Source: an uncultured Eubacteriales bacterium (GTDB lineage: Bacteria > Bacillota > Clostridia > Lachnospirales > Lachnospiraceae). Taken from it: a DNA stretch of 37,249 bases. Both the position numbers and the translations under genes were made by a program. A model generated the notes under the pieces. The model searched no databases and was not told the DNA's origin. It saw only the letters and a program-made list of their open reading frames with translations. The stretch is taken from contig OMVN01000021.1 of assembly GCA_900314525.1 (NCBI GenBank), forward strand, positions 1-37,249. The letters are read 5' to 3'. Each line of letters starts with the position of its first letter. Within the stretch, counting starts at the first letter, position 1. Below are positions 4,027-31,604 of this stretch, in pieces.

Positions 4027-4045
4027 ACCCCTGAGAGGTGAATTT

Positions 4046-5346: not shown

Positions 5347-6342
5347 ATGTTAAGCACAGATATTGGAATTGATTTGGGAACAGCAAGTATTTTAGTATAC
5401 ATAAAAGGTAAAGGTGTAGTATTAAAGGAGCCTTCAGTTGTGGCATTTGACAGAGACACAAACAGGATAAAGGCAATTGGTGAGGAAGCAAGACTCATGA
5501 TAGGAAGAACACCGGGAAATATCGTGGCAGTAAGACCACTGAGACAGGGTGTTATTTCTGATTACTCTGTAACAGAGAAAATGTTAAGACATTTCATTCA
5601 GAAAGCAATGGGAAAGAGAACATTTAAGAAACCAAGAATTAGTGTCTGCGTACCAAGTGGGGTAACAGAAGTTGAGAAAAAGGCCGTTGAAGATGCAACA
5701 TTACAGGCAGGAGCAAGAGAAGTTGCAATTATAGAAGAGCCTATCGCTGCAGCAATTGGTGCTGGAATAGATATAACAAGACCTTGCGGAAATATGATAG
5801 TAGATATAGGTGGAGGAACAACAGATATTGCAGTAATTTCTTTAGGCGGAACTGTTGTAAGTACATCTGTAAAGATTGCCGGAGATGATTTTGATGAGGC
5901 AATTGTCAGATATATGAGAAAGAAACACAATCTTTTAATCGGCGAGAGAACAGCTGAGGAAATAAAGATTAAGATAGGTTCTGCATATAAGAGACCTGAG
6001 GTTATTACACTCGATGTAAGAGGAAGAAACCTTGTGACAGGTCTTCCTAAGACAGTTACAGTTACTTCGGATGAAACTGAAGAAGCATTAAAAGAGACAA
6101 CATCTCAGATTATTGAGGCAGTTCATAGTGTCCTTGAACAGACACCTCCTGAATTATCAGCAGATATAGCAGACAGAGGAATTGTTCTTACAGGTGGCGG
6201 ATGCCTTCTTCAGGGCCTTGAGGAACTTATAGAGGAGAAGACTGGAATCAATACAATGACAGCTGAAGATCCAATGACAGCAGTTGCTATTGGAACAGGT
6301 AAATTTATTGAATTCCTGAGTGAAGGTCCTTCAGACAATTAA
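5347..6342 (+). CDS. mbl: MreB/Mbl-family rod-shape actin
   Basis: A 331-residue bacterial actin that polymerises under the membrane and guides cell-wall elongation. The N-terminal phosphate-1 motif is DIGIDLGTASILVY. The second phosphate loop, MIVDIGGGTTDIAVISLGG, is near residues 150-168, and the adenosine motif GIVLTGGGCLLQGL is near 279-292. The length is standard. MreB, Mbl and MreBH cannot be separated securely by eye. The name Mbl is chosen because the gene follows spoIIID, as in B. subtilis, and because mreC/mreD are absent. The start follows TTGGAAGGAGAAAAAG at 5331-5346. A clear terminator follows at 6361-6388, making it monocistronic. Confidence 0.85.
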   Translation: MLSTDIGIDLGTASILVYIKGKGVVLKEPSVVAFDRDTNRIKAIGEEARLMIGRTPGNIVAVRPLRQGVISDYSVTEKMLRHFIQKAMGKRTFKKPRISVCVPSGVTEVEKKAVEDATLQAGAREVAIIEEPIAAAIGAGIDITRPCGNMIVDIGGGTTDIAVISLGGTVVSTSVKIAGDDFDEAIVRYMRKKHNLLIGERTAEEIKIKIGSAYKRPEVITLDVRGRNLVTGLPKTVTVTSDETEEALKETTSQIIEAVHSVLEQTPPELSADIADRGIVLTGGGCLLQGLEELIEEKTGINTMTAEDPMTAVAIGTGKFIEFLSEGPSDN

Positions 6343-11766: not shown

Positions 11767-11795
11767 TTGACAATAAAATATATATGTGTTAATAT
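11767..11795 (+). promoter_or_regulatory. promoter of rplJ-rplL
   Basis: Consensus TTGACA (11767-11772), 17-bp spacer, TAATAT (11790-11795), with an extended -10 TG at 11787-11788. Transcription would start near 11802, just at the L10 leader. Confidence 0.85.
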
Positions 11796-11802
11796 ACACA
11801 AA

Positions 11803-11882
11803 GTGTTGAACCGAAGACAGCAGGTGCAATCATTCGATTGCTCAAATTATTTGCCTGCCGAGGAATAAACTTATGAATTTGT
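11803..11882 (+). ncRNA. ribosomal protein L10 leader
   Basis: The sequence ACCGAAGACAGCAGGTG (11810-11826) and TGCCTGCCGAGG (11852-11863) matches the known Firmicute L10 leader, which binds L10(L12)4 and controls an attenuator. The pairing CAGCAGG/CCTGC.G closes a kinked stem around a small hairpin CAAT.CATTCG.ATTG. The downstream terminator at 11883-11925 is the regulated output. Confidence 0.85.
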
Positions 11883-11925
11883 ACCTCTTTGTCTATGGTT
11901 TTATATCATGACAAAGAGGTTTTTT
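11883..11925 (+). terminator. rplJ attenuator
   Basis: ACCTCTTTGTC (11883-11893) pairs perfectly with GACAAAGAGGT (11910-11920), followed by T-rich sequence to 11925. It lies between the L10 leader and rplJ, so it is an attenuator rather than an operon end. Confidence 0.85.
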
Positions 11926-12007
11926 AATATTTAAGTTTTAAAATCTTAGTTCGGAGTACACAATATGTCATAAATAATGACAGAATCTATAAGGAGGCAA
12001 AAAATTC

Positions 12008-12505
12008 ATGGCTAAAGTAGAAGAAAAGAAACCAGTTGTTGAAGAGATTTCTGAATTACTTAAGGATGCAAAGTCAGCAGTAATCGTTGACTATCGTGGA
12101 CTTACAGTTGAAGAAGATACAAAGCTTCGTAAAGAGTTAAGAGAAGCAGGATGTACTTATAAAGTATATAAGAACACAATGATCAACTTTGCTGTTAAAG
12201 GTACAGAATTTGAAGAATTAAGCAAACATTTAGAAGGACCTACAGCAATCGCTGTTTCAAAGGACGATGCTACAGCACCTGCAAGAGTATTATTTAACTT
12301 CTCTAAGGGAGCAGAAGCACTTGAACTTAAAGCTGGAGTAGTAGAAGGAACATATTATGATGTTGATGGAATTAAGATTATAGCTTCAATCCCATCAAGA
12401 GACGAACTTCTTGCAAAATTCCTTGGAAGTATCCAGTCACCTATTACAAACTTTGCTCGTGTTATTAAGCAGATCGCTGAGAAGAACGAAGAGACAGTTG
12501 CTTAA
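12008..12505 (+). CDS. rplJ: 50S ribosomal protein L10
   Basis: A 165-residue ribosomal stalk base protein that anchors L7/L12 dimers. The N-terminus has the AKSAVIVDYRGLTVEE stretch, followed by YKVYKNTMINFAVKGT and the C-terminal helix that carries L12. It starts after AAGGAGGC at 11991-11998. It is under the upstream L10 leader. Between it and rplL lies a perfect 16-base palindrome at 12524-12539. Confidence 0.97.
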   Translation: MAKVEEKKPVVEEISELLKDAKSAVIVDYRGLTVEEDTKLRKELREAGCTYKVYKNTMINFAVKGTEFEELSKHLEGPTAIAVSKDDATAPARVLFNFSKGAEALELKAGVVEGTYYDVDGIKIIASIPSRDELLAKFLGSIQSPITNFARVIKQIAEKNEETVA

Positions 12506-12539: not shown

Positions 12540-12575
12540 ATTATTAATTTATTTGAAAAAATGGAGGATAATAAA

Positions 12576-12938
12576 ATGACAACTCAGGAAATTATTGAAG
12601 TAATCAAAGGTTTATCAGTTTTAGAATTAAACGATTTAGTTAAGGCTTGTGAAGAAGAATTTGGTGTTTCTGCAGCAGCAGGTGTTGTTGTAGCAGCAGG
12701 CGCAGCAGCTGGAGCAGCTGAAGAAAAGACAGAATTCGACGTTGAGTTAACATCATTCGGTGAGAAGAAGATGGACGTTATCAAACTTGCTAAGAACGAA
12801 TTAGGATTAGGATTAAAGGACGCTAAGGCTAAAGTTGAAGCAGCTCCTACAATCATCAAAGAAGCAGCAGCTAAAGATGAAGCTGAAGCTCTTAAAGCTA
12901 AATTCGAAGAAGTTGGCGCTACAATCACATTAAAATAA
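12576..12938 (+). CDS. rplL: 50S ribosomal protein L7/L12
   Basis: A 120-residue multi-copy stalk protein that recruits translation GTPases. The N-terminal dimerisation helix ([19 protein letters not shown]) is followed by an Ala/Gly/Val-rich hinge near residues 34-50 and the globular domain with [15 protein letters not shown] and [12 protein letters not shown] at the end. An in-frame ATG at 12561 overlaps the GGAGG ribosome binding site (12562-12566), so the start at 12576 is used. Unusually for this region, rplL is followed by a strong terminator and not by rpoB. Confidence 0.97.
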
Positions 12939-12959
12939 TTTTAGCATATGAATTTTTAA

Positions 12960-12987
12960 GTGCTGGACAATGTCCAGCACTTTTTTT
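12960..12987 (+). terminator. rplJL terminator
   Basis: GTGCTGGAC (12960-12968), loop AAT, GTCCAGCAC (12972-12980), then seven T residues (12981-12987). This is a textbook intrinsic terminator, and two A residues upstream can extend the stem against the T-run. Confidence 0.93.
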
Positions 12988-13114
12988 ATGTATATGATGA
13001 GCTAAGTGAGAACGTATACTCGCACGAATTTACATTTTCCAGTTTCCACAATCTGTAAATATAAACAAAATATAAAATTATATTTGTCTAAAATGACCAC
13101 ATATGTTAAATAAT

Positions 13115-13142
13115 ATTACATTTTTGTCGAATAGTGTATAAT
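13115..13142 (+). promoter_or_regulatory. probable promoter of the pilus operon
   Basis: A perfect TATAAT (13137-13142) with ATTACA 16 bp upstream (13115-13120). It lies 200 bp before the adhesin start codon. The -35 box is only fair. No operator could be recognised. Bases 12988-13114 hold no gene. Confidence 0.5.
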
Positions 13143-13149
13143 ATCATAA

Positions 13150-13343
13150 ACAATTGAACTTATTGTTAAAATTCATAATTTAGAATATTAACACATATAA
13201 ATAAATTGGCTGGTGATATAGGATATCAATTCAGCCTGGGGAAAGATACTAGTTAATTAGGGTTGACTTTATAGTGAATATGCTGACGATGACAGGAATT
13301 TAACCTTGATATCATAGGTAGATTTACAAAGGGGGTCAGGGAT
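13150..13343 (+). promoter_or_regulatory. long structured 5' leader of the adhesin gene
   Basis: The predicted leader is about 195 nt and codes for nothing evident. GGCTG (13208-13212) pairs with CAGCC (13232-13236) around an inner GATAT/ATATC stem (13215-13227). AGGGTT (13259-13264) pairs with AACCTT around a segment of about 40 nt. AAGGGGG (13329-13335) is the ribosome binding site. It does not fit the c-di-GMP-I, c-di-GMP-II or fluoride riboswitch patterns I tried by eye. Confidence 0.4.
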
Positions 13344-16300
13344 ATGAGTGAGAAAAAAATAAGAAGAATAATATCTGTATTTTTAGTGCTCGCAATGGTA
13401 TTTTCAATCTTTGCAGGCATGGATATTGTGCCTTTAAATGCAGGAGATAAGGACAATAGCGGAAGCTTAGCTAATTGCAGAGTAGAATATACAGATGATA
13501 AAGTAATATATACGAACAATACGGGAGTAGTTAAGGTTACAGTTACGGCTGGAAAGGATGTATTTCCTGACGGAACTAAGATGGAATTGAAGGATACCGA
13601 TAAGAATGAGGTAATTGATAAGGCTAATCTGCAAATTACAGAGAGTGATGAAGAGTACAGACTTAAGAATGCAATTGGTGTAGATATTAATTTCATCGAT
13701 CCCAATGGAACTGTCACTGAGCCTGAACAGTCAAAAGTTCAGGTTGAAATTGAACTGATTAAAGATGAATTAAATGGTGAAGTTACGGATATACTTCATG
13801 TGGTAAATGACAAAGCGGTAAAGGTAACAGAAGGAGTTAAGGTAACTGATAATAAGGCTGATTTTGTTACAGAGAGTTTTTCGACATATATTATTGCAAC
13901 GAAGATTGGGGAGCAATATAAGATTGACTCTAATGGATGTGAATATGTTGCAAAGGGTGAAACTCTACAACTCAGACTTCAGAGTTCGCAGACCACGGAT
14001 GCAAATCCAAATCCAAAGGTTGTTACAGAGGGGGTTACGTGGAGAAGTTCAGATCCTACAAAGGCTACAGTTGATGCAAGTGGTCTTGTGACAGGTGTTG
14101 AGAACTCGGAGAACCACGTTATTAACATTATTGCTACATATAAGGGCAGGGATTACATAAGAACCCTGGCAGTTATTTTTAAACATTATAAACTTAATAT
14201 ATATTCTCAAAGTAATGGATATTTATCGGGAACAGATTTAAATAATAGCTATAGTTTGGTAGGGGTACAGGATGTAATTGAGGATCAGGTTCCTGTTGAA
14301 CCTGTTCACAAAGACTATGTAAATATGCTATTTGTTGGATGGTATGGTTTTAATGATTCAAATAATAATAATATTCCAGATTCGGACGAGATAGATATTT
14401 CTCCTGAGAATAAATATGATTTCAAGGATGAAACTATTAAGTCTGACACTAATATCTGTGCAGTATATACAGATCTTAATACCTGTATAGTAAATATAGA
14501 ATATGTAGCGGTTTATGGAGAAGAAAAAACTATAAAATTAGCGCCGACATACAGAATTGAAACTTTTTTGGATAATGAAGGAATATTTTACAGGCCAGTT
14601 CCTATTCCTGATTTTAATAATAGAAACGAAGAAAATTATATAATTCTTGCGGACGATTCGGAACAGAAGTACTTAAATGCCAAAGAGAATAGCAGTTGTC
14701 ACATAAGTTTAGACAGAGATATGTATACAATTAATCTTAGTCTTACTGCTGATGAAATAAGGAATAATGGGACATTGTCATTTAAAGTAGTATTTACAGG
14801 AACAGAGGCAAAGTACACAGTAAATCATTATTTGGAGGATCCAATTGACCCAGATCATCCATCAGAGAGAACTTATACAAAAGAATATGTGGAAGAAAAA
14901 CAAAGTATAGTACACACATATACTGATGCAGAGCCTATTACTGATGCATATCCAGTGAGCGCAGAACTTGTTGACCTATTCAGAGAATTTGAACCGGGAA
15001 AAGTAGTTGATGTAGAAGTTGCTAATCCTACAGGCACAGTAGTTGATATTTACTACAAGAGAAAGTCGTATACCTTAAGTTTTGCATCTACTGGTGATTC
15101 AGTAATTACGTCAAAAGTATTGGAATTCAGGGCACCGATAACGGTAAATACAGATCAAGCAGATGAAAATTTTGGTGCTATAAGATTAAAACAGTCAGAT
15201 GGTGCAACTATTGATATCGATCCACCTAAACGAGAAGGATATCAGTTTAAAGGCTGGCAGTTTACTTATATGGAACATGGCGTAGAGATAGAAATGGATG
15301 CGCCAGACAAGATGAGGGGGCATGACATAAAGGCGACTGCAGTCTGGGAAGCAAACCAAATGGTTGATTATACCATTGTGTATTGGCAGCAAAAAGCAGT
15401 GGTTAAGTCAGATGATATGGAAAAATATCCAGTAGATACTAATACATATAATTCGCTTATAGAAAATTACAATTATGCAGATTCCAAAGTGGTTACAAAA
15501 GGTGCCAAAATTGGCTCGAAAACTTCAGATTTAATTGCAGAACTTGAGGCGGATACAAGTGATAGTGGAATAAAGAATAAGTATCCAGATACAGGAAAAA
15601 TAACATATATATACGAATCAAGTGTTGGAAATTCGGGTGAGCTGAAAATTGATGGATCTACAACGATTAATGTATTTTATAACAGAGAAATAATTACGTA
15701 CAATGTTAATTGGAGTGGAGTGAGTATTACTGATGATGTGAGTCATCTTAATAAATATACAGGACTTGAAGGGGCTGCTATACAAGATTACTATCCTGGT
15801 TTTGAGTTTGATACGAGATATATTTGGAGGTATAGAGAACGAGGTAAAACGACAGATACTACAAATACTCTGTTAAGTGCATTTGTTGATGTTGAGAATA
15901 ATACTAATTTTACAGTAGAATCAAGGACACAGTATTATTCTAAGGTTGTTCATTTTATAGAAAACAAAGATGGAACGTTTTCGTTAAAGTCAGAGGTGGC
16001 ACTTTCAGCGGCACCACCTAGAGGGACTTCTAGTTTTAGCATTACTAATAAATTCAATGGATATACTGCCAAAGGTTATAGAATAGTAAGCTGGAAGAAT
16101 GAGAAGAGTCAGAGTGATTATGAAAATGATTACAGAACCCCGAATACAGAAACATCTTCAGGATGTAGTACACAGATAAGCGGTTCTAAGACTGTCGGAG
16201 CCTATGAGTCAATTCAGGTATATCATTACAGAGATTCTGGATACAGGATAGATATGTATACGGGAAAATCAGTTGGAACTAGTACTATGATTGAAACATA

Positions 16301-19013
16301 TAACAATAATCTCTGTTACGGCGACAGTGTATGGGAAGCCATAAAGAGTTACTGCGAAAGCAAGGGTTATACGGCAGAAAGCGGTTATGAACCAGAGGAG
16401 CCTGCTAAAGTAAAGAAAGATAATCAGGATTCGGATCCAACTAACGATTGGCAGTGGATGGGATGGTATATGATACCAGATCCTGAGTATGGAACAGAGG
16501 CAGGAAAATATTCAGAGACATCAGATGTAACATTTAGTGATTCATTAACGGTTCGTATTTTTGCGGTATGGAAACCACCTCAGTGTGAGATTATTTTCAT
16601 AGATCCTAGCGGAATTAATGAAAATCATGTAATGAAGTATGATAAGTACTCATATGTTTCACCATCAGATTTATACGATGGAAATCAGCTAACACCTCCA
16701 GTAATTGCAAACACATTGGAAGGTACGACTGCTAAGTATGTATTTGATGGATGGTATTATGATAGAAATTACAGTGTAAAATATGATACGTCCAGAAAAA
16801 TAGACAGGACACCTAACGAGTTATATGCAAAGTGGCTACTTACTGGAAAGATTCGATATAATGTAGTACTTTACAACAATAAAGGGGAAAAAATCGGTTA
16901 CGAGATTGTAGAAGTCTCAGCAGCAGGAACTTATGATGTTATAGGTTTGACGGATATAGATGGTAATGAGTATACTGGCGCAACCAAGAGGGTTTATGTT
17001 GATGCAGATCTTATTAAGGAAGAAGTGACAGCATACCTGGCAGAGGATGTATGGGTATATCAGGTTTACTGCATATGTGAAGATGGAGATGTGCAAAGCC
17101 AGATTACAGGTGCATACTATGGTACCACATACGAGGAAAAATACATAACAGCACCAACTATAGATGGATACATGTTTACAGGATATTCTAATAAAGGTGA
17201 TGGAGGAAGAATGCATCAGTCATATCAGATGATAAAAAAATCAGATGATTATAAGTCGACTGGTACAGGATATGTAGATACACCACAGGTATATTTCTAC
17301 TATAAAAAAATAAAAAATATACCGGTAAAAATAGAGTACTACAAAGAGAATGACAATGGTACATATGATAAGGATGAATCAGCTACTGTTAACATTACTT
17401 CAGATGCTGGTGTTACTAAAGATTTTATGAATTATGATGATGGAAGTGGAAATATCACTAATTATGCACCCGATGATAAATACGCAGGTTATTACATGGC
17501 GGTTGCACCAATAGATTTACAGAAAACCATTTCATCAGATTCTGCTAAAAATGTTATTGGAGTTTATTACAGATATAAATATGGAACTGTAACATTTGAA
17601 AACAGAGATACCAACTATCAGATGTACCTCGCAGAAGATGATTCATCAATTACCATGGTTACAGAAAAAGTTAAGTACAATGATCAGGTTGATAAGCCAT
17701 TCGTATACGGAAAAAATCGAAGGGGTACTAGATACAGTCCTATTTGGTATACAGAGGATGATAAGGAGTTTGATTTTACATCTAAGATTACAAGTGATGT
17801 AAAATTGCATGCAGTATGGAGTCAAATCCCTGATCCAAGTTATACCCTTGATATAGAGGGAATTGCAAAAAATGTATCATATAACGGACAGGAGCAATTC
17901 TTGATTCAGGGAATAGATAATATAGAAGAGGCAATCCCTAAATTTGAATTGAAATATCATTCAACCTCCATATTTGGTACTATAAATGGTGATGTCGATA
18001 AAAAGAGTTTCGATTGGAAACAGGTTGATGGAAATAAAAACTATATTGATTTTACTTACGAAGGGAATTATACGGCAAATGGCGTAAGTGTAGAGATTAA
18101 ACTGGAAGGACAGTACAGACTAAAGGGAATGGCAGGAGAACCGATTAAAGGAATTGACTCAGGAAAGTATTATGGGGAAATTGTATTAACTAAGGCTACG
18201 AATAGGTATTTCAATCGGGATTATGATTTGCTGCAACAAAAAGCAATAGAGATAGTTTCTGATCCGGGTTATCTAAACATAAACCCAGTGCCTCTTGCTA
18301 TAGGAACAGATAATTATACTTGCGAATATGATGGAACAGAGCACACAAAGAAATCGGGATGGGTAAATATTAATAATACAGGAACTGAACCTCTTGAGAC
18401 TGATATGACAAGCAAAAATCTTTTAGGCTCTGATGTAATGAATTATGAAATAACAGGAATAAGAATTGATGCTGGAACAGTAGACAATAATATTACAATA
18501 AACAATATTATGGGTGACAGAAATGGGACATTAACTGATGTTTCTAAAAACTATATTATATCTTACGATGTAGGAAAAATAACTGTCACTAAGTCGACGG
18601 CAGATTGGATACCAGATGTAGAGATAACCAGTGTAGATACCAAGGTTGATGGAAACTACCATGGAATAAGCATTAAAGATAAGAATCCGAATCAGAAAAA
18701 TATATATTTCATATCTTATGATTCAGATGTTTATGAATATATACGAAATCCAAAATTCAAGGATCCAGGTTACTATGAGATGGAAGTAGTAGTAGCTAAT
18801 CCAAACTATATAAAGACAGCTACAGTAAAACTGGATAAGGATAACAAAAATATACATGTATATATTTACAGTGATGATATCACCCCGGCAGGATTTTTCT
18901 TTAACGGGTTGCCATATATTATACTAGTAGCATTTGGACTTATTATGATGGGAATCAGGATAAGATTAAAGAAGAAGAAAACCCCTCTGGGTTCTGGAAA
19001 TGAGGTGATGTAA
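13344..19013 (+). CDS. giant cell-surface adhesin with InlB-type and Ig-like repeats, probable pilus-associated protein
   Basis: A 1889-residue secreted, membrane-anchored protein. A signal peptide (residues 1-33, charged MSEKKIRR start, hydrophobic core, cut after LNA) is followed by a beta-rich domain (about 40-185) and a BIG_2-like Ig domain (about 190-281, with VTWRSSDPTKATVDASG). A YTVNHYLEDP MucBP-like unit lies near 491. Repeated InlB/Listeria-Bacteroides-type units are marked by GW/GY motifs near 330, 633, 1038, 1133, 1276 and 1466 and end in AVW or AKW. MBG-like units with YNGQ or YDGTEHT lie near 1513 and 1662. The C-terminus has ITPAG (1846-1850), a transmembrane helix and KKKK. 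ITPAG resembles the pilin VAPTG but has Ala for Thr. By position it corresponds to Cpa of streptococcal FCT loci. No thioester-domain signature was found. The ligand is unknown. Confidence 0.82.
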   Translation: MSEKKIRRIISVFLVLAMVFSIFAGMDIVPLNAGDKDNSGSLANCRVEYTDDKVIYTNNTGVVKVTVTAGKDVFPDGTKMELKDTDKNEVIDKANLQITESDEEYRLKNAIGVDINFIDPNGTVTEPEQSKVQVEIELIKDELNGEVTDILHVVNDKAVKVTEGVKVTDNKADFVTESFSTYIIATKIGEQYKIDSNGCEYVAKGETLQLRLQSSQTTDANPNPKVVTEGVTWRSSDPTKATVDASGLVTGVENSENHVINIIATYKGRDYIRTLAVIFKHYKLNIYSQSNGYLSGTDLNNSYSLVGVQDVIEDQVPVEPVHKDYVNMLFVGWYGFNDSNNNNIPDSDEIDISPENKYDFKDETIKSDTNICAVYTDLNTCIVNIEYVAVYGEEKTIKLAPTYRIETFLDNEGIFYRPVPIPDFNNRNEENYIILADDSEQKYLNAKENSSCHISLDRDMYTINLSLTADEIRNNGTLSFKVVFTGTEAKYTVNHYLEDPIDPDHPSERTYTKEYVEEKQSIVHTYTDAEPITDAYPVSAELVDLFREFEPGKVVDVEVANPTGTVVDIYYKRKSYTLSFASTGDSVITSKVLEFRAPITVNTDQADENFGAIRLKQSDGATIDIDPPKREGYQFKGWQFTYMEHGVEIEMDAPDKMRGHDIKATAVWEANQMVDYTIVYWQQKAVVKSDDMEKYPVDTNTYNSLIENYNYADSKVVTKGAKIGSKTSDLIAELEADTSDSGIKNKYPDTGKITYIYESSVGNSGELKIDGSTTINVFYNREIITYNVNWSGVSITDDVSHLNKYTGLEGAAIQDYYPGFEFDTRYIWRYRERGKTTDTTNTLLSAFVDVENNTNFTVESRTQYYSKVVHFIENKDGTFSLKSEVALSAAPPRGTSSFSITNKFNGYTAKGYRIVSWKNEKSQSDYENDYRTPNTETSSGCSTQISGSKTVGAYESIQVYHYRDSGYRIDMYTGKSVGTSTMIETYNNNLCYGDSVWEAIKSYCESKGYTAESGYEPEEPAKVKKDNQDSDPTNDWQWMGWYMIPDPEYGTEAGKYSETSDVTFSDSLTVRIFAVWKPPQCEIIFIDPSGINENHVMKYDKYSYVSPSDLYDGNQLTPPVIANTLEGTTAKYVFDGWYYDRNYSVKYDTSRKIDRTPNELYAKWLLTGKIRYNVVLYNNKGEKIGYEIVEVSAAGTYDVIGLTDIDGNEYTGATKRVYVDADLIKEEVTAYLAEDVWVYQVYCICEDGDVQSQITGAYYGTTYEEKYITAPTIDGYMFTGYSNKGDGGRMHQSYQMIKKSDDYKSTGTGYVDTPQVYFYYKKIKNIPVKIEYYKENDNGTYDKDESATVNITSDAGVTKDFMNYDDGSGNITNYAPDDKYAGYYMAVAPIDLQKTISSDSAKNVIGVYYRYKYGTVTFENRDTNYQMYLAEDDSSITMVTEKVKYNDQVDKPFVYGKNRRGTRYSPIWYTEDDKEFDFTSKITSDVKLHAVWSQIPDPSYTLDIEGIAKNVSYNGQEQFLIQGIDNIEEAIPKFELKYHSTSIFGTINGDVDKKSFDWKQVDGNKNYIDFTYEGNYTANGVSVEIKLEGQYRLKGMAGEPIKGIDSGKYYGEIVLTKATNRYFNRDYDLLQQKAIEIVSDPGYLNINPVPLAIGTDNYTCEYDGTEHTKKSGWVNINNTGTEPLETDMTSKNLLGSDVMNYEITGIRIDAGTVDNNITINNIMGDRNGTLTDVSKNYIISYDVGKITVTKSTADWIPDVEITSVDTKVDGNYHGISIKDKNPNQKNIYFISYDSDVYEYIRNPKFKDPGYYEMEVVVANPNYIKTATVKLDKDNKNIHVYIYSDDITPAGFFFNGLPYIILVAFGLIMMGIRIRLKKKKTPLGSGNEVM

Positions 19014-19014
19014 A

Positions 19015-19515
19015 TTGGCAGAGAAAAAAGAATATATAAAATCATTTATAATACGATTGATAGTATTCATTTTTATCATGCTGATAATGTTTACACAGAT
19101 TTTTGGCTTTTATGCCATACAGAACAATGAGATGCAGCCAAAACTGATGGCTGGAGATCTGACACTGTTTTACAGAATTGGAAGCAAATACAGAAGTTCC
19201 AATGTGGTAGTTTACAAGGCGAAAGGAAAGAAGCATGTAGGAAGAATAATTGCTGTACCTGGAGATACTGTTGAAATTACAAAAGATGGAAAGCTCATCA
19301 TAAATGGCAGTACAGTTATAGAGACAGAGATTTATTACACTACGACTGCCTATGATGGAGATGAAGTAGAGTATCCTGTAAAACTTAAGAAAAACCAATA
19401 TTTTATATTAGGCGATTACAGGGAAGGGGCAAAAGACAGCAGATATTTTGGGCCAGTGTCGAAGAAAAATATATTAGGGGAGGTGATTACTGCCATAAGA
19501 CGTGGAAACTTATAA
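19015..19515 (+). CDS. SipA-like signal peptidase homologue lacking the catalytic dyad
   Basis: A 166-residue type I signal peptidase-fold protein with one N-terminal transmembrane segment (about 10-32). Box B, normally SMxPTL, reads EMQPKL, so the nucleophile serine is Glu39. Box D, normally with Lys-Arg before the hydrophobic and PGD stretch, reads HVGRIIAVPGD, so the general-base lysine is Gly76. The framework motifs GD at 47-48 and GDYREGAKDSRYFGPV at 133-148 are kept. Streptococcus pyogenes SipA of the FCT pilus locus has also lost both residues and is needed for pilus polymerisation. A TTG start follows GAGGTG (19002-19007), one base after the adhesin stop, so translation is probably coupled. 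A peptidase function is unlikely; an assembly role is inferred. Confidence 0.85.
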   Translation: MAEKKEYIKSFIIRLIVFIFIMLIMFTQIFGFYAIQNNEMQPKLMAGDLTLFYRIGSKYRSSNVVVYKAKGKKHVGRIIAVPGDTVEITKDGKLIINGSTVIETEIYYTTTAYDGDEVEYPVKLKKNQYFILGDYREGAKDSRYFGPVSKKNILGEVITAIRRGNL

Positions 19516-19543
19516 AAATATGAATTGAAAAGGAGAGATAGTT

Positions 19544-20815
19544 ATGAAAAAAATAAGAATATCTAAAAAAATAGCAACTATATTAACAGCAACAGCCCTT
19601 ATTACCTCTACGTTTGCAATGACAGCATTTGCAGCTCCAGCAGATGAGAAGGGTGTAACAACAGGGGATGCTCTTACATCTATTTCATTTACAAAAGATC
19701 TTAAGTTAGTAGACGAAGATTCTTCATTTACACCAACAACGCCTAATGTAAAATTTGCATATACATTAGCACCAGCAGCAGATGCTGATGTGACAGGAGT
19801 TGTCAAGGCAGAAAAGAAATCAGATGATACAGTGGTTCAGGCGGGAGTGAAGAAAGGTATTGTAGAAGCAATAAAGACACAGCCTGGAAATGCGGAATTT
19901 TCACCTGCAGATGTGGCAACAAATAAAGTTGTTTCAAAGACAATGACTATTGAATTTGATGCTTCTAAATTTACTGCAGCAGGTATTTATAGATATGTTC
20001 TTACAGAGGGAGATCCAGATAATTCAAATGTATCAAAGACAGATAAACAGACAAGATATATCGATGTATATGTTACAGATAAAGATAATGATGGAACTCC
20101 AGAAATAACAGGTACAGTTGTTACAAAACCTGGTACATCAGGAAAAGTGTTAAAGACAGATGGTTTCACAGATGATTATGATGAATACACAGAAGATCCT
20201 GTAGATAAGACTTTATCAAAGACTGGGGAAGGAACAGCTGATTCAGGAGTTAGTACATATAATACATATGACTTAAAAGTAAGTAAAGAGGTTAAAGGCG
20301 ATTTAGGAGATAAGACATATAAATTCAACTTCAATACTACATTTACAACTACAGATGAAACTGCAAATAATCAGGGGATTATTTTATCAAGCTTTCTTAA
20401 TGGTACAGGTGAAGCAGCACCTATAGCTTTTGATGCTAGCAAAACAATTGTTTTTAATTCAAAATTAAAACATGGTGAATATGTTATCATCAAAGGAATA
20501 CCTGCAGACAATGTTTCATATACTGTAGATGAAGCAAAACATGAAGTTGATTCATATGTTGTAACAGCAAAGGCATTCGCAGACGCTGATGCTTCTCTTG
20601 CAGATACAACACTTAAAGACTCATCAGATGGTAAGATAACTGCCTCTCTTAAAATAAATAAAAAAGCTGGCAAGAATGAAGTAGATTTTACAAATACATT
20701 AGATAATGTTGCACCAACAGGTCTCGTGTTAAAACTTATGCCATACGTAATAATGGTAGTATTTGCAGCAGTTATGGAATACATCTTCTTAGGCAGAAGA
20801 AAAGAGATTAAATAA
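19544..20815 (+). CDS. Spy0128/FctA-like major pilin
   Basis: A 423-residue secreted pilin. The signal peptide (1-30) ends in TAFA before APADEKG. Domain 1 (about 44-240) and domain 2 (about 241-386) both have the pattern of FctA Ig-like modules. Lys51 in SFTKDL, Glu155 in YVLTEGD and Asn240 in TYNTYD are candidates for one intramolecular isopeptide bond. Lys248 in LKVSKEV, Glu330 in YTVDEA and Asn384 in DFTN are candidates for the second. The sorting signal is VAPTG (389-393), followed by a hydrophobic helix and GRRKEIK. The motif resembles EVPTG of Spy0128 rather than LPXTG. It starts after AAAGGAGAGA. Downstream lies a stem-loop and then the sortase. Domain assignments are by eye; bond partners are inferred. 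Confidence 0.85.
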   Translation: MKKIRISKKIATILTATALITSTFAMTAFAAPADEKGVTTGDALTSISFTKDLKLVDEDSSFTPTTPNVKFAYTLAPAADADVTGVVKAEKKSDDTVVQAGVKKGIVEAIKTQPGNAEFSPADVATNKVVSKTMTIEFDASKFTAAGIYRYVLTEGDPDNSNVSKTDKQTRYIDVYVTDKDNDGTPEITGTVVTKPGTSGKVLKTDGFTDDYDEYTEDPVDKTLSKTGEGTADSGVSTYNTYDLKVSKEVKGDLGDKTYKFNFNTTFTTTDETANNQGIILSSFLNGTGEAAPIAFDASKTIVFNSKLKHGEYVIIKGIPADNVSYTVDEAKHEVDSYVVTAKAFADADASLADTTLKDSSDGKITASLKINKKAGKNEVDFTNTLDNVAPTGLVLKLMPYVIMVVFAAVMEYIFLGRRKEIK

Positions 20816-20824
20816 ATAGCCATA

Positions 20825-20860
20825 AATTTGCGAGACACGCCAAAGCGTGTTTCGCAAATT
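20825..20860 (+). promoter_or_regulatory. stem-loop between pilin and sortase genes
   Basis: AATTTGCGAGACACGC (20825-20840) pairs with GCGTGTTTCGCAAATT (20845-20860) over 16 bp, with one G-U pair and a CAAA loop. There is no T-run. It could partly stop transcription or protect the pilin mRNA 3' end, giving more pilin than sortase. Confidence 0.7.
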
Positions 20861-20915
20861 AATAAATCAGAAATGCTTAGCAATTTAATTTTAATAAAGA
20901 GAGGAGATGACAAAA

Positions 20916-22205
20916 ATGGGACTTAATGTTGGAGTTAAAATTGCAAAAGCTGGAAACAGAATTATGGCTTTTATTGCAGCAATTTTAGTAATTGTCTCAT
21001 TGTCATATGGTTCATATTCCCTGTGGGATGCATATATGACATATAAAGGCGCATTTTTGTCGGAAGAACTCCTTAAATATAAGCCTGTTGAAAATGGCAC
21101 GGGATACAATCCTACGCTATTGGATTTGAAAAATGTAAATAAGGAGACGGTGGCATGGATAACCGTAGATAATACGCATATTGATTATCCGGTGCTAAGA
21201 GCCAAGGATAATGCAAAATATGTAAATACAGATATTTATGAAAATTTTTCCCTTTCAGGATCAATATTTTTGTCTTATGAGAATAGTCCGGATTTCTCAG
21301 ATTCATACAATTTGCTTTTTGGCCATCATATGGCGAATGGTGGAATGTTTGGAGATGTTGCCAAATTCACCAAAAGGGATTTCTTTGAGAAACATCGCAA
21401 GGGAATGCTTTTTACCGAAAATGAAACATATGATATTGAATTTTTTGCCATTATGAATACAGTGGCATATGATTATACGGTATATTATCCAGGTAAATTT
21501 AAGACAAATGGAGATACACCGGAACTTCTGTCATATATAAAAGACAAATCTATGATTTTTGAAGATTGTGGTTTTCAGGGTGATTATAAAATCATAGCGT
21601 TATCTACTTGTGAGGATGCGACAACAAATGGAAGAACAGTTTTGTTTGGAAAGATGATTAAGAAGAACTATGTTGACGACAAACTTGGCAAGGGTGATGA
21701 TGATACAAAGACTTTAGTGGTAGAAAAAGTTCAGAAGAAAAATGATATGAATAAAGCCGAAGAGGAATTCCACTGGGCATTATTTAATCTTATCTGTATG
21801 ATTATTACCATAGTTATTTATGTAATAATGTTTATCAACAGACATAAAATTATTCAAAGCATTAAAGATAATATAAAAGAAGAGAAAGATGATAATAAAC
21901 AGAGAGAAGATGAAACAGTAGAAACAGAGGAAATGACTGCAACAGAATATGTGGATGATGAGAGAGAGAAGAGATTAAAACATATTGAAAAATATGAGAA
22001 ATTCTTAAGGAAAAAACGTAAAATAATGATTCTACAGATTTTTGCAGGAGCATTTGTTTCAGTTGCCTCTATCGTTACGTTTATACTTACAGAGAATATA
22101 TTCGAACCAATGATATTATTTGATAAGTGGTCACTTCTTATGTTTATACTCCTGATTATTAATGGAGTTATATATCTTTCAAAAGGAAAAAGAAGAATAA
22201 AATAA
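20916..22205 (+). CDS. class B sortase with C-terminal membrane extension, probable pilin polymerase
   Basis: A 429-residue membrane sortase. After an N-terminal transmembrane helix (about 15-38) comes a class B core. It includes AWITVDNTHIDYPVL, the catalytic His137 in LLFGHHMANGGMFGD, Cys232 in ALSTCEDATTNGRT, and Arg240. Core class B sortases end near here. This one continues with a transmembrane helix (about 285-308), a charged coiled-coil-like region (about 310-368) and two more hydrophobic segments (about 371-391 and 404-420). It probably joins the VAPTG pilin subunits and perhaps the adhesin. The ATG at 20916 is preferred because the GAGGAG ribosome binding site (20901-20906) touches the in-frame ATG at 20907. 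A terminator follows at 22211-22242. Confidence 0.85.
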   Translation: MGLNVGVKIAKAGNRIMAFIAAILVIVSLSYGSYSLWDAYMTYKGAFLSEELLKYKPVENGTGYNPTLLDLKNVNKETVAWITVDNTHIDYPVLRAKDNAKYVNTDIYENFSLSGSIFLSYENSPDFSDSYNLLFGHHMANGGMFGDVAKFTKRDFFEKHRKGMLFTENETYDIEFFAIMNTVAYDYTVYYPGKFKTNGDTPELLSYIKDKSMIFEDCGFQGDYKIIALSTCEDATTNGRTVLFGKMIKKNYVDDKLGKGDDDTKTLVVEKVQKKNDMNKAEEEFHWALFNLICMIITIVIYVIMFINRHKIIQSIKDNIKEEKDDNKQREDETVETEEMTATEYVDDEREKRLKHIEKYEKFLRKKRKIMILQIFAGAFVSVASIVTFILTENIFEPMILFDKWSLLMFILLIINGVIYLSKGKRRIK

Positions 22206-22210
22206 ACATA

Positions 22211-22242
22211 CCCCGCATTTGTACGATGCGGGGTTGATTTTT
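22211..22242 (+). terminator. terminator of the pilus operon
   Basis: CCCCGCAT (22211-22218) pairs perfectly with ATGCGGGG (22226-22233) around a 7-base loop. The T-rich TTGATTTTT follows. The interrupted T-run suggests good but perhaps incomplete termination, which would let some transcript reach the SipW-type gene. Confidence 0.75.
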
Positions 22243-22300
22243 GCCTGTAGAATGTATAAACTGTACATACATTGATAAAACTAGGAGAAATTTGATATAG

Positions 22301-22738
22301 ATGACAAGTAAAATAAAAAGAGTTATTTTGATTATAATTGCAGCCCTTGCCTTTGTAATGATTGTAGGATATTTGACTGGTTACAGATATTATGCAATTG
22401 AAACAGGAAGTATGGAAAAGAAGTATCCAGTTGGTTCTCTTACTATAGTAAAGAAAATGCCTGGAGATAAGATTAAGAAAAATGATGTTATAACATTCAG
22501 AACAGGGAATAAGGCAATAGTCACCCATCGTGCCATAAATATTAATTATGAAGAGAAGAGTATTGAAACAAAAGGAGATGCAAATAACACTCCAGATAGT
22601 TCTAAAACAAATTTTAAGAATGTAATAGGCAAAGTAGTAATAGACATTCCATATGCTGGGTATATAATTATGTATTTTTCTACGGTGGTTGGAAAATTGA
22701 CATTACTACTGGCTATAATAATATGGGTTATAGCATGA
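22301..22738 (+). CDS. SipW-type (ER-like) signal peptidase I
   Basis: A 145-residue membrane peptidase with transmembrane segments near residues 8-28 and 118-144. ETGSMEKKYPVGSL carries the nucleophile Ser37. IVTHRAI carries His76 in place of the lysine of bacterial-type enzymes, and KGDANNTPD holds the aspartates (93 and 99) of box E. This Ser-His form is that of SipW and archaeal/ER peptidases, and all key residues are present. It lies 95 nt after the sortase, beyond a terminator, with TAGGAGAA (22282-22289) before the ATG. In Bacillus, SipW processes the matrix protein TasA. Here the neighbouring pilin or adhesin are plausible substrates, but this is inference. The 46-residue ORF downstream may be co-transcribed. 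Confidence 0.85.
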   Translation: MTSKIKRVILIIIAALAFVMIVGYLTGYRYYAIETGSMEKKYPVGSLTIVKKMPGDKIKKNDVITFRTGNKAIVTHRAININYEEKSIETKGDANNTPDSSKTNFKNVIGKVVIDIPYAGYIIMYFSTVVGKLTLLLAIIIWVIA

Positions 22739-22788
22739 TTGGACATTGATATATAATTGAAATATGAAAATTTGAAAAGAGAGACATA

Positions 22789-22929
22789 ATGATAAAGAAA
22801 ATAATAGCATTTGTTATGGTATTTATTGCGGCAATATTTTTGCTTGGTGCTATATATATGTTTAAAACCGATAAGGGAAGAAAATATAAAAATACCCTTG
22901 ACAAGTCAGAAACCCTTATGATATTATGA
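22789..22929 (+). CDS. small single-span membrane protein, unknown
   Basis: A 46-residue [23 protein letters not shown] begins it, giving one hydrophobic helix (about 4-24), then a positively charged tail with [20 protein letters not shown] (22774-22782) lies 6 nt before the ATG. It is not recognised. The 50-nt gap to the SipW-type gene suggests the same transcript. Its last ten codons also contain the rpoB promoter, so part of its sequence is constrained by another function. It might equally be a remnant of a longer protein or a non-functional ORF. Confidence 0.45.
22898..22927 (+). promoter_or_regulatory. promoter of rpoB-rpoC
   Basis: Consensus TTGACA (22898-22903), 18-bp spacer, TATTAT (22922-22927) with an extended -10 TG at 22919-22920. 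It overlaps the end of the 46-residue ORF. Transcription would start near 22934, giving a leader of about 108 nt with a small GCACA/TGTGC hairpin at its start. Confidence 0.78.
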
Positions 22930-23041
22930 AAACTGCACATTTGTGCGAAGTGGGCTTATTATGCCTAAAAACAGATACCTAATAGGAATAGATACTCCAA
23001 CTATTCTTATATTATTAAAGATGCAAGGGGTGAATGTCGCG

Positions 23042-26913: not shown

Positions 26914-29900
26914 ATGCCTGAACAAAATAAAGAAACTTATCAGCAGATGACATTTGATAAAATCAGAATTGGTCTTGCATCCCCTGAGAAAATCAGAGAG
27001 TGGTCCAATGGAGAGGTTAAAAAACCTGAAACAATCAATTACAGAACATTAAAGCCAGAAGTTGATGGCTTGTTCTGTGAGAGAATATTTGGACCAAGCA
27101 AAGACTGGGAATGTCATTGTGGAAAATATAAAAAAATCAGATACAAAGGTGTTATTTGTGACAAGTGTGGTGTTGAGGTAACAAAGTCAAGTGTTAGAAG
27201 AGAACGTATGGGTTCTATCGAACTTGCAGCACCTGTTTCACATATCTGGTATTTTAAGGGTATCCCTAGCAGAATGGGATTAATTCTTGATATATCTCCT
27301 CGTATACTTGAAAAAGTATTATATTTCGCATCATATGTAGTTCTTGATCCAGGAGAAACTGAGCTTATGTACAAGCAGGTTCTCTCAGAAAAAGAATACA
27401 GAGAAGCATATGATAAATATGGCGAAGCATTCAGAGTAGGAATGGGTGCAGAGGCAGTTGATGAATTACTTTCATCAATTGATCTTGAGAAAGATGCAGT
27501 AGAGTTAAAAGCAGCTCTTGAAAATGCATCAGGACAGAAGAGAGCTAAAATTGTAAAAAGACTTGAGGTTGTTGAAGCGTTTAGAAATTCAGGAAACAAA
27601 CCTGAGTGGATGATACTTAAGGTTGTGCCTGTAATTCCACCAGATTTAAGACCAATGGTACAGCTTGATGGCGGACGTTTTGCTACATCAGATTTAAATG
27701 ATTTATACAGAAGAATTATTAATAGAAACAATCGTCTTGAGAAACTCCTTGAACTTGGAGCACCTGAGATTATTGTAAGAAATGAAAAGAGAATGCTCCA
27801 GGAGGCTGTAGATGCGTTAATCGATAACGGTCGTAGAGGTCGTCCAGTTACAGGACCTGGAAACAGAGCATTAAAATCTCTTTCAGACATGTTAAAAGGT
27901 AAACAGGGACGTTTCCGTCAGAACTTACTTGGTAAGCGTGTTGACTACTCAGGACGTTCAGTTATCGTAGTTGGACCAGAACTTAAGATTTACCAGTGTG
28001 GTGTTCCAAAGGAAATGGCAATTGAATTATTCAAGCCGTTTGTAATTCGTCAGTTAACAGCTGAAGGAATGGCACACAATGTAAAGAGCGCAAAGAAAAT
28101 GGTTGAAAAATTAAGCCCAGAGGTATGGGATGTGCTTGATGATGTTATTAAAGAGCATCCAGTTATGTTAAACCGTGCACCTACACTTCATAGACTTGGT
28201 ATTCAGGCATTTGAGCCAATATTAGTAGAAGGTAAAGCTATTAAGCTTCATCCTCTTGTTTGTACAGCATTTAATGCCGATTTCGATGGAGATCAGATGG
28301 CTATTCATCTTCCATTATCAGTTGAGGCACAGGCTGAGTGTAGATTCTTATTACTTTCACCTAATAACCTCTTAAAACCTTCAGATGGTGGACCAGTTGC
28401 TGTTCCTTCACAGGATATGGTACTTGGTATTTATTACCTCACACAGGAAAGACCTGGTGCAAAGGGAGAAGGAAAAGTATTTAAGAGTGTAAATGAAGCA
28501 ATACTTGCTTATGAAAATGGAGTAATAACATTACATGCTAAGATTTTTGTAAAAGTTACAAGAAAAACTCCAGATGGAGAAGTTATAACTGGTATTATAA
28601 ATACAACACTTGGTAGATGTCTGTTCAATGAAATTCTTCCACAGGATTTAGGATTAACAAGAAGAGAATCAAAAGAAGATTACTTAAAACTTGAAGTAGA
28701 CTACCTTGTAAAGAAAAAGGAATTAAAGGGAATTCTCCAGAAAGTTATTAATACTCATGGAGCAATCAAAACAGCTGAAGTACTTGATGACATTAAAGCT
28801 ATTGGATATAAGTACTCAACAAGAGCTGCTATGACAGTTTCAATTTCTGATATGACTATTCCTAAGGAAAAGGCACCACTTCTTAAACAGGCTGAAGAGA
28901 CAGTTGAGAAGATTAAGAATAATTATCGTCGTGGATTTATAACTGACGAAGAGAGATATAAGGAAGTTATCAATACATGGCAGGATGCAGATAATAAGAT
29001 TCAGAAAGCCCTTATGGCAGGACTTGATGATTATAACAATATTTACATGATGGCTGACTCAGGAGCCCGTGGATCTGATAAGCAGATCAAACAGCTTGCA
29101 GGTATGCGTGGTCTGATGGCAGATACAACAGGTAAAACAATTGAGTTGCCTATCACATCAAACTTCCGTGAAGGTCTTGATGTTTTGGAATATTTCATCT
29201 CAGCTCATGGAGCTAGAAAAGGTCTTTCAGATACAGCCCTTCGTACAGCCGATTCAGGATACCTTACAAGACGTCTTGTTGATGTATCACAGGAATTAAT
29301 TATAAGAGAAGTGGATTGTGCAACAGAGAGAAAAGAAATTCCATATATGGAAATAAAAGCATTCAAGGAAGGAAACGAAGTAACAGAGAGCCTTGAAGAG
29401 AGAATTACAGGACGTTACAGCGCAGAGACAATTACTGATGCTGAGGGAAATGTAATTGTTAAGAAGAATCATATGATTACTCCTAAGCGTGCAGCTGCTG
29501 TAGTAGCTACAGGAAGAGAGTCAGTTAAGATTCGTACAATACTTACATGTAAGAGCCATAACGGAATTTGTTCTAAGTGCTATGGTACAAACCTTGCAAC
29601 AGGTCAGGCAGTTCAGGTTGGTGAGGCAGTTGGTATTATTGCTGCTCAGTCAATCGGTGAGCCAGGTACACAGCTTACTATGAGAACATTCCATACTGGT
29701 GGTGTTGCCGGTGGTGATATCACACAGGGTCTTCCTAGAGTAGAAGAGCTTTTCGAGGCCAGAAAACCAAAGGGACTTGCAATTATCGCAGAGTTTGGTG
29801 GTAAGGTCGAAGTTAGAGACACTAAGAAGAAGAGAGAAGTTGTAGTAACTAACCAGGAAACAGGCGAGCAGAAAGCTTACTTAATTCCTTACGGTTCAAG

Positions 29901-30540
29901 AATAAAAGCTCGTATTATGGATGGTATTGTAATTGATGCCGGTGATGAACTTACAGAAGGTAGTGTAAATCCACATGATATCTTAAGAATTAAAGGTGTC
30001 AGAGCAGTACAGGATTACATGATTAAAGAAGTTCAGAGAGTTTACAGACTTCAGGGTGTTGAAATCAATGACAAACATATCGAAGTTATTGTTAGACAGA
30101 TGCTTAAGAAAATCAGAGTTGAAGAGGCAGGAGACAGTGAATTCCTTCCAGGAACACAGGTTGATGTCCTTGACTTTAATGATGTTAATGAGCAGTTAGA
30201 AGCAGAAGGAAAAGAACCTGCAGTTGGAAAACAGGTAATACTTGGTATTACAAAATCTTCACTTGCAACAAATTCATTCCTTTCAGCAGCTTCATTCCAG
30301 GAAACAACAAAAGTACTTACAGAAGCAGCAATTAACGGAAGAGAAGATCCATTAGTTGGACTTAAAGAAAACGTTATTATCGGTAAACTTATCCCTGCTG
30401 GTACAGGAATGCATATGTACAGAGATGTAAAACTCAGTACAGACCAGGATGAGGTAGTAGTTTCAGAGGAAGAAGATACAATAGCTGATACAGATGAAGT
30501 AGTACTTTCTGAAGAAAGCCAGGAAGATGTTACAGAATAA
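26914..30540 (+). CDS. rpoC: DNA-directed RNA polymerase subunit beta'
   Basis: A 1208-residue core subunit. The zinc-ribbon cysteines [20 protein letters not shown] lie near residues 67-86. [14 protein letters not shown], with the three Mg-binding aspartates, is near 450-463. The second cysteine cluster, [13 protein letters not shown], leads into [19 protein letters not shown] and [10 protein letters not shown]. The end is acidic ([18 protein letters not shown]). No lineage insertions or breaks are visible. The ATG follows AAGGGAG (26897-26903). Co-transcribed with rpoB, and ended by the terminator at 30561-30590. Confidence 0.97.
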
Positions 30541-30590: not shown

Positions 30591-30647
30591 AGTTATTACA
30601 TAATAGGGAAATTAAGGTAATGATACCAAGGGATTCAGGTGAGAATG

Positions 30648-31604
30648 ATGAATATGAGAAATAAATTATTCTATATAATAATAGTGATTGTGCTAACTAT
30701 GTCAAATGTATTAGCTAATACAGACATTGTAAGGGCTGATAGCTTATATGTCATAAGGATAAATATAAAGAATAATCATATGTATATTTATGAGTTTGAT
30801 CAGGCAGGTAATATCAGTCTGAAAAAAGATATGGCATGCTCTCCATGTATGAATCAGAAGGCGGATGGGTTGACTAGGACGATTACCTATAAGGAAGAGT
30901 GGAAAGCCACAAATCAGGGAACATATGTAAGGTATGCAAATGATTTTGATGGAGATATAAGTATAAGCTCCGTTCCGTATAAAGGAATATCGTATGACAG
31001 CTTAGATGCAAATAAATATAATCTGTTGGGGAATTCCAAAAATACAATAAATGTATGGGTAAGTGTAAGAGATGCAAAATGGATATACGATAATTGTCAG
31101 GTTGGAACACAGGTACAGATTGATGATAAAAGTGAAGCGCTGAACGATGACATGGAAAAGGCAATAAAACTTAATGAAGATAATCCAAATTCCGGATGGG
31201 ACCCAACAGACGAGGATGCAAATAATCCATGGAGTAAATGCAAGCCAAAAATTGAGGGTACAAAAAATATTCAGACAATAGTAAATAAGAAAGTCGACCT
31301 TCTTGAAGGAGTAAAAGCATATGACACCTGCGGTAATGATATAACTAACACAATTAATGTTATGGGGAATTATGATTTTGGAATAGAGGGTGACTATAAT
31401 ATTTTATATTATGTAAAAGATAGTCTTGGTCAGACCGCAAATACTACAATAAGTCTCAATGTTCAGAAAATAAAAAGCAGTTATGTACAGAAAAAAGATG
31501 ATAAAAATACAGAAAAGACAACAGCAGACAAGCTAAAAGTAATTATTTTTCTTGGAGTAGCAGTTGCCCTGTTTATTAAATTTGTACTAAACAGAGAAAA
31601 ATAA
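30648..31604 (+). CDS. membrane-anchored protein with degenerate L,D-transpeptidase (YkuD) fold and Ig-like domain
   Basis: About 318 residues. A signal peptide (ILTMSNVLANTDIVRA region) precedes a segment with YkuD framework: TYVRYANDFDGD, SVPYKG, YDSLDANKYNLLG and VRDAKWIYDNCQVGT. The catalytic HxG...SHGCVRL block is absent. The His of HSVPY is Ser107, and the SHGCVRL position reads NTINVWV (132-138), so the Cys nucleophile is Asn135. A DUF5011-like Ig domain (about 198-273) and a C-terminal transmembrane helix (about 295-311) follow. GTG at 30639 and ATGs at 30645 and 30654 are alternative starts. It is probably a non-catalytic cell-wall protein. It lies alone between rpoC and rpsL, behind the rpoC terminator. 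No clear promoter was seen. Confidence 0.7.
   Translation: MNMRNKLFYIIIVIVLTMSNVLANTDIVRADSLYVIRINIKNNHMYIYEFDQAGNISLKKDMACSPCMNQKADGLTRTITYKEEWKATNQGTYVRYANDFDGDISISSVPYKGISYDSLDANKYNLLGNSKNTINVWVSVRDAKWIYDNCQVGTQVQIDDKSEALNDDMEKAIKLNEDNPNSGWDPTDEDANNPWSKCKPKIEGTKNIQTIVNKKVDLLEGVKAYDTCGNDITNTINVMGNYDFGIEGDYNILYYVKDSLGQTANTTISLNVQKIKSSYVQKKDDKNTEKTTADKLKVIIFLGVAVALFIKFVLNREK

Follow-up and report, generated by a model that had tools for sequence, protein, structure and literature searches.

A predicted SipA-assisted, class B sortase pilus operon between rplL and rpoB in a Lachnospiraceae genome

Pili built by a class B sortase with the help of a SipA-like protein have already been published for streptococci and Clostridium perfringens (PMC8088525, in the part consulted). 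In the FCT-2/3/4 islands of Streptococcus pyogenes the genes stand in the order cpa-sipA-fctA-srtC-fctB, while the pilus of C. perfringens VR-10B, described in the same part of PMC8088525 as resembling streptococcal loci, comprises CnaA, FimA, FimB, a signal peptidase and a class B sortase. The pilus islet 2 (PitB) of S. pneumoniae and S. oralis is counted here among the closest systems, without a gene-by-gene comparison. In this work we describe a related locus located between rplL and rpoB in a 37,249-nucleotide stretch of DNA (contig OMVN01000021.1 of assembly GCA_900314525.1, in full; hereafter the window) from an uncultured Eubacteriales bacterium of the family Lachnospiraceae.

The locus very probably encodes a SipA-assisted pilus of the S. 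pyogenes FCT-2/3/4 type, polymerised by a class B sortase, although formation of the fibre is predicted from homology. It shares with those islands a SipA devoid of catalytic residues, one class B pilus sortase, a two-domain FctA pilin with isopeptide triads in its sequence and an xPTG signal, and the order tip-SipA-pilin-sortase (published order in the consulted part of PMC4049620). It differs in having no FctB found in the genome, in the three-helix FILTED tail of its sortase, in a 1889-aa tip candidate ending in ITPAG, in its position, and in carrying no regulator family among the Pfam and NCBIfam matches of the inserted open reading frames (ORFs). The locus is thus a hybrid in form, combining FCT order with a Ruminococcus-type sortase tail and no base pilin; because the base pilin was looked for and not found, we do not file it as an FCT locus. 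With the VR-10B pilus, likened by description and not by sequence, it shares a clostridial host and genes for a signal peptidase and for a class B sortase, whereas VR-10B has three pilins, with FimB as the base candidate (same part of PMC8088525). Titles and abstract openings, with subscription journals outside the search, gave no match for pili between rplL and rpoB, for FctA-type pili in Lachnospiraceae or Ruminococcus, or for the FILTED domain.

Proteins of the pilus operon

A preliminary description of the window, made from the letters and translated ORFs, had proposed an FCT-like pilus encoded by six ORFs between rplL and rpoB, in the order giant adhesin, signal-peptidase homologue, pilin, class B sortase. 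All six ORFs are confirmed on the + strand, their order agrees with that of FCT islands (PMC4049620, same part), and the pilin and sortase exceed the cut-offs of DUF7601 and TIGR03064 instead of falling into unrelated families. The FCT-like interpretation as a whole is supported; of the giant adhesin, the surface protein with Big_2 and sub-threshold List_Bact_rpt repeats stands, while its role in adhesion is presumed.

When SipA was used as a single query against PDB sequences, the S. pyogenes SipA structures came first (4n31, 6.4e-26; 4k8w, 7e-24), with the active signal peptidase I 4nv4 far behind (1.6e-10). The columns of the catalytic Ser and Lys are occupied by Glu39 and Gly76, corresponding to Asp48 and Gly85 of the S. 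pyogenes protein, which is required for polymerisation yet is without peptidase activity (PMC4049620, consulted part). That study also had FCT-2 expressed in Lactococcus lactis. Among 77 family members collected with our own profile, Asp fills the Ser column in 65 and Ser itself in 5, and 67 have Gly and one has Lys in the Lys column.

The sortase matches the class B model TIGR03064 with 203.6 bits (cut-off 153.75). Its best PDB match is 3psq (1e-40), ahead of 4y4q; the table name of 3psq is "hypothetical exported protein", and we take it to be the S. pyogenes pilus sortase Spy0129. Residues H140/H141, C235 and R243, the catalytic His-Cys-Arg, are invariant in 16 and in 19 aligned relatives. 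Hydropathy places one segment N-terminal of the catalytic domain and three C-terminal of it. The C-terminal FILTED extension (residues about 290-428) reaches 72.7 bits with NF052597 (cut-off 40), compared to 79.6 in the congeneric genome G008, 61.0 in Ruminococcus albus and 52.4 in R. flavefaciens. The FILTED motif covers the last part of the third hydrophobic segment and the loop that follows; F392, T395, E396, D406 and M412 do not vary across 19 aligned long sortases. Seven further sortase-domain matches are present in the window genome. A second cluster elsewhere in that genome (L238, G000:C71:793-10784) combines a 1669-aa ORF that matches DUF7601 with two ORFs carrying a sortase domain.

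The pilin, assigned as an FctA-type two-domain major pilin with predicted isopeptide bonds, matches DUF7601 with 48.8 bits (cut-off 27), the streptococcal pilin repeat remaining below cut-off. Two isopeptide triads are recognised in its sequence, K51-E155-D210 and K248-E330-N384. Asp takes the place of Asn in the first, as in 4 of 38 aligned sequences, window included. The giant protein, presumed to be an adhesin at the tip because of its size, domains and position, has a Big_2 match (25.7 bits, cut-off 22.8) and List_Bact_rpt repeats just below threshold (26.4, cut-off 27). It begins with an N-terminal hydrophobic segment and ends with ITPAG, a hydrophobic stretch and KKKK; its G008 orthologue ends with IPSG and a similar hydrophobic stretch. 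Compared with a Cpa-type tip adhesin, only Big_2 and List_Bact_rpt are seen.

Several observations weigh against a pilus of this type. The pilin alone finds no match among PDB sequences, so that its link to FctA requires relatives or a predicted model whose mean pLDDT is only 73.7. The giant protein likewise has no PDB relative by sequence and no Pfam DUF7601 match, and Ala replaces Thr in its sorting signal. In G008 the giant gene is split by a gene on the minus strand whose 591-aa product looks, by eye, like a transposase (L039, 5788-7563). Six of 29 surveyed sortase loci have no neighbour from these pilus-part families, and FctB, a defining FCT part, was found neither at the locus nor genome-wide.

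Drawing on what is known of the families, assembly may proceed as follows. After export, pilin and giant adhesin would stay in the membrane through their C-terminal xP[TA]G signals, and SipA, with its catalytic residues lost, would help to deliver pilins to the sortase. The latter would cut the signal, add a single adhesin as the tip and thereafter couple pilins to one another, with isopeptide bonds within both pilin domains stiffening the fibre. As no base pilin was found, the fibre probably ends in one of two ways: the last pilin may be attached directly to the wall via another sortase, or the fibre may remain with the pilus sortase embedded in the membrane. At this locus, the assembly of a surface fibre, the tip role of the giant protein and adhesion are all putative.

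The missing base pilin and two operon architectures

No FctB-like ORF was found downstream of the window sortase, and an FctB profile run over the whole window genome gave only seven weak matches (best 4.8e-5), each confined to the profile's C-terminal part. The earlier remark that no FctB gene is seen thus holds at both levels. The same profile gave one C-terminal match and a weak match to the pilin itself in G008, one C-terminal match in G298 and none in G106; the N-domain of FctB was not found genome-wide in any of the four long-sortase genomes searched, i.e. these three and the window genome. In the short-sortase genomes G321, G351, G355 and G192, a full FctB lies beside the sortase.

To place this in a wider frame, sortases were divided into short (< 380 aa) and long (380 aa or more). 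A scan of named genomes provided at least 78 loci, raised to 84 by the window and five others, and 82 of them gave a usable main sortase; FctB counts need at least 1.5 kb downstream, excluding 7 of the 82. Among the loci listed, FctB follows 45 of 48 short sortases and 3 of 27 long ones (Fisher p 2.8e-13), and our FILTED profile, built from two sequences, matches 24 of the 29 long sortases listed. In a quick, unrooted tree of 82 sortase cores there is a single change between long and short. The window and G008 form a pair (support 100), with the remaining 27 long sortases on one side of it and the 53 short ones (group support 88/100) on the other. Since the pairing of a long sortase with missing FctB is one event on the tree, it is weak evidence of function and not a set of independent cases.

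Short-sortase operons of gut Clostridia (Anaerobutyricum hallii L140, Blautia L163 and L195, Oribacterium, Gemmiger, Anaerococcus) share the order adhesin-sipA-pilin-srtB and homologous proteins with the window, their sortases being 40-51% identical to it. They differ in FctB after the sortase, an often PKTGD-like signal, and large proteins with a pilin-like domain. Neither rplL nor rpoB was seen in the examined flanks of the at least 78 named loci listed. In nine short-sortase loci (L072 at 3626-4468, Phage_integrase; L073, L146, L148, L149, L153, L155, L161, L179), tyrosine-recombinase ORFs precede the adhesin or pilin, and in two others (L075 at 5437-6054; L203) serine-recombinase ORFs do so; they may be switches or mobility genes. 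The long-sortase operons of R. albus and R. flavefaciens (L174, L175, L182) share with the window the FILTED class B sortase (by NCBIfam in L174 and L175) and no FctB after it. Their SipA directly precedes the sortase, the pilin not standing between the two as it does in the window, and their sortases are 33-34% identical.

How a fibre without FctB would end can be explained in more than one way. A base-free pilus, whose elongation stops by chance and whose last pilin is joined directly to the wall by a different sortase, as reported for Bacillus cereus, is a credible account to which we give nearly even weight. It agrees with the genome-wide search for a base pilin, which found none, with the seven further sortase-domain matches and with VAPTG as a usable signal, although a housekeeping sortase among them and its acceptance of VAPTG are putative. 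We regard it as possible, but rather unlikely, that the FILTED extension replaces the base pilin, so that a four-helix sortase stays joined to the pilus or docks it, holding it in the membrane and not at the wall. The contrasting FctB counts after short and long sortases, the genome-wide results in four genomes of each kind (no N-domain in the long-sortase genomes, full FctB beside the sortase in the others) the placement of the FILTED motif and the five residues invariant in long sortases point in this direction. However, a single change on the tree suffices, and the pairing may be one historical accident; L173, L194 and L204 carry both a long sortase and FctB, 5 of the 29 long sortases listed have no match to our FILTED profile, FILTED also occurs in 952-aa and 1552-aa open frames of other genomes, and G008 is only 83% complete. 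If the extension does act in this manner, gut Clostridia might possess, beside the FctB-bearing class of SipA/class B sortase pili, another that lacks a base pilin and in which membrane-embedded FILTED performs termination and retention, the window lineage being the surviving intermediate between the two; we put this forward as a doubtful proposal.

Readings that dispense with a working pilus or with the position itself fare worse. That the sortase attaches adhesin and pilin to the wall as single molecules, without a polymer, is improbable: the base pilin is missing and class B sortases commonly anchor iron-uptake proteins (consulted part of PMC8088525), but SipA is required for polymerisation where tested (PMC4049620, as consulted), 3psq is the nearest sortase structure and the pilin is of FctA type. 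A decaying FCT operon that has already lost FctB would fit that absence and the broken giant gene of G008, yet we hold it very improbable, as the ORFs of the window are intact, catalytic and isopeptide residues are retained, and FctB-less long-sortase operons are common (24 of the 27 loci listed). An assembly error next to rpoB, conceivable in a draft of 72 contigs, has a negligible chance; it is refuted by the independent genome G008, where rplL and rpoB flank the same operon, and a further pilus operon occupies this gap in G321.

The machinery of SipA-assisted, class B sortase pili is recognised by sequence and predicted fold in a large number of gut commensal Clostridia, under two architectures. 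The one with a FILTED sortase and no FctB opens to experiment the question of how a sortase-built pilus is terminated and retained when a base subunit is lacking.

The rplL-rpoB junction as an insertion site

The gene order rplJ-rplL-giant protein-sipA-pilin-sortase-rpoB of the window recurs in G008 with 40-66% protein identity. Because of this congener, the locus is neither chance nor an assembly artefact. By rpoB, G008 is the closest genus member examined (91% identity), with G004 at 87%. Gaps between rplL and rpoB measure 0.23-0.37 kb in G003, G004, G005 and G007 and 0.92 kb in G001, while the 3.7 kb gap of G002 holds a protein with six ChW repeats and DUF5648; G009 is cut off by a contig break, and no rpoB was obtained from G006. 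A single pilus insertion predating the split of the window lineage and G008 is the simplest account.

A non-random family survey covered 158 genomes, the best 149 of 370 by rpoB likeness and nine chosen for a related sortase. In 133 of them rplL and rpoB share contig and strand, in 24 they do not, and one gave no rplL. The 133 gaps fall into 83 of 0-1 kb, 11 of 1-2 kb and 36 above 2 kb (33 of 126 once the nine sortase-chosen genomes are left aside), with rplL on the other side in 3. Inserts vary in content, including sugar kinases, ABC transporters, sensor kinases, pyruvate kinase and ChW proteins (73 of 84 ORFs, the two longest per piece). In 43 pieces, 197 insert ORFs of at least 150 aa follow the direction of rpoB and 39 oppose it.

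A sigma-70-like promoter (10/12 matches or better) lies within 260 bases upstream of rpoB in 51 of 54 sequences, compared to 28 of 620 random pieces. Within 150 bases after rplL, 21 of 49 have a perfect-stem terminator, compared to 21 of 620. This set is enriched for insert-bearing genomes, and the terminator script misses some cases visible by eye, e.g. G005 and G008. As a rule, rpoB has its own promoter in Lachnospiraceae, and the junction is a permissive insertion site, open between the rpoB promoter and conserved leader on the right and, often, a terminator on the left; these features may be the reason for its use.

A related sortase (1e-35 or better) was found in 42 of 397 family genomes sampled, rpoB being located in 41. 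Among these 41, it was seen inside the gap in two, the window genome and G321; G008 came from a separate genus search. G321 belongs to a different genus, has a short sortase with FctB and lies on another branch of the sortase tree, so its operon probably arrived in the gap independently. Further cases could be hidden in drafts with rplL and rpoB on separate contigs. In G351 and G355, pilus operons lie outside the gap, 11 and 20 kb upstream of rpoB. Oribacterium parvum (L178) has a short-sortase pilus operon about 9 kb upstream of rplJ, and that of G355 is also on the rplJ side.

Edges of the operon and neighbouring features

Coordinates of all features are collected in Table 1. The pilus operon sits between two transcription units and not within one, as the rplL terminator and the rpoB promoter delimit its two sides, and is probably tolerated there for that reason. 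Consequently, the placement by the preliminary description between rplL and rpoB stands, but not inside a single conserved operon; its suggested synteny check bore fruit, with the same insert in G008, another pilus operon in G321, and 36 of 133 gaps above 2 kb. Its guess of butyrate production fits PTA/PTB-family and acetokinase-family genes at 220-2217.

Table 1. Features of the window around the pilus operon.
Feature	Position	Strand	Remarks
L10 leader RNA	11793-11934		Rfam
rplJ	12008-12505		upstream of rplL
rplL	12561-12938		left flank
Intrinsic terminator	12958-12982	+	after rplL, left edge of insert; 11-bp stem, 6 GC pairs, T-run
Giant surface protein, presumed tip adhesin	13344-19013	+	1889 aa
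SipA, signal-peptidase-like	19015-19515	+	166 aa; Glu39/Gly76 at Ser/Lys positions
FctA-type major pilin	19544-20815	+	423 aa, two domains; two triads, VAPTG sorting signal
Class B pilus sortase	20907-22205	+	432 aa; His-Cys-Arg complete; C-terminal FILTED extension
Terminator-like hairpin	22210-22234	+	10-bp stem, 6 GC pairs, then TGATTTTTGC
SipW-like signal peptidase	22301-22738	+	145 aa; TIGR02228 match
Membrane ORF, doubtful status	22789-22929	+	46 aa; 3' end overlaps rpoB promoter
rpoB own promoter	22898-22927	+	TTGACA-18-TATTAT with TG, 11/12 matches; right edge of insert
Conserved rpoB leader	22930-23041	+	left undisturbed by insert
rpoB, likely start	23042		ATG; listed GTG at 22943 is a longer in-frame alternative

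An equivalent of the rplL terminator was detected in four of five short-gap congeners by the same script and in the fifth by eye, and the rpoB promoter element recurs in short-gap congeners. The hairpin behind the sortase is the probable right end of the pilus operon. The preliminary description had added a SipW-type peptidase and the 46-residue ORF to the pilus genes. Both ORFs are present, but we leave them out of the operon with moderate confidence because they lie behind the hairpin, neither has an equivalent in G008, where the sortase is followed by its own hairpin and then rpoB, and the final codons of the smaller one form the -35/-10 region of rpoB. The peptidase reaches 93.6 bits with TIGR02228 (cut-off 51.85) and 79.1 with the SipW model (cut-off 190). 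Its gene is probably not part of the operon, and a role as a pilus gene is unlikely also since, among the other long-sortase loci listed, SipW-profile ORFs occur only in L207. A Peptidase_S26 family match at the locus scores 93.6 bits (cut-off 22.9).

Foreign composition of the insert was considered and rejected, its G+C content of 0.33-0.36 resembling the 0.34-0.40 of the surroundings. A phase-variable promoter was also rejected: the region 12900-13500 is without a convincing invertible element before the giant gene (longest inverted pair, terminator aside, 19 nt at 79%), and two recombinase queries found no match among the window ORFs.

At gathering score, Rfam gave no match in the window besides the L10 leader, the rpoB leader included. 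The latter, which may be an undescribed leader element, has a predicted hairpin with a few two-sided changes across nine genus members, and the strict motif TGC[AG]CTATT[AG]TGG is found in 28 of 54 family leaders. The rplL-rpoB gap of G166 (L126-L127, 29.5 kb) codes for a VWA/SpaA protein of 2021 aa and has two ORFs similar to the SipW-like one of the window, plus a weak camelysin-like match. In the window itself, the ORF directly after rpoC (26914-30540, named by position) encodes a protein of 321 aa (30639-31604) that includes a surface Ig-like domain.
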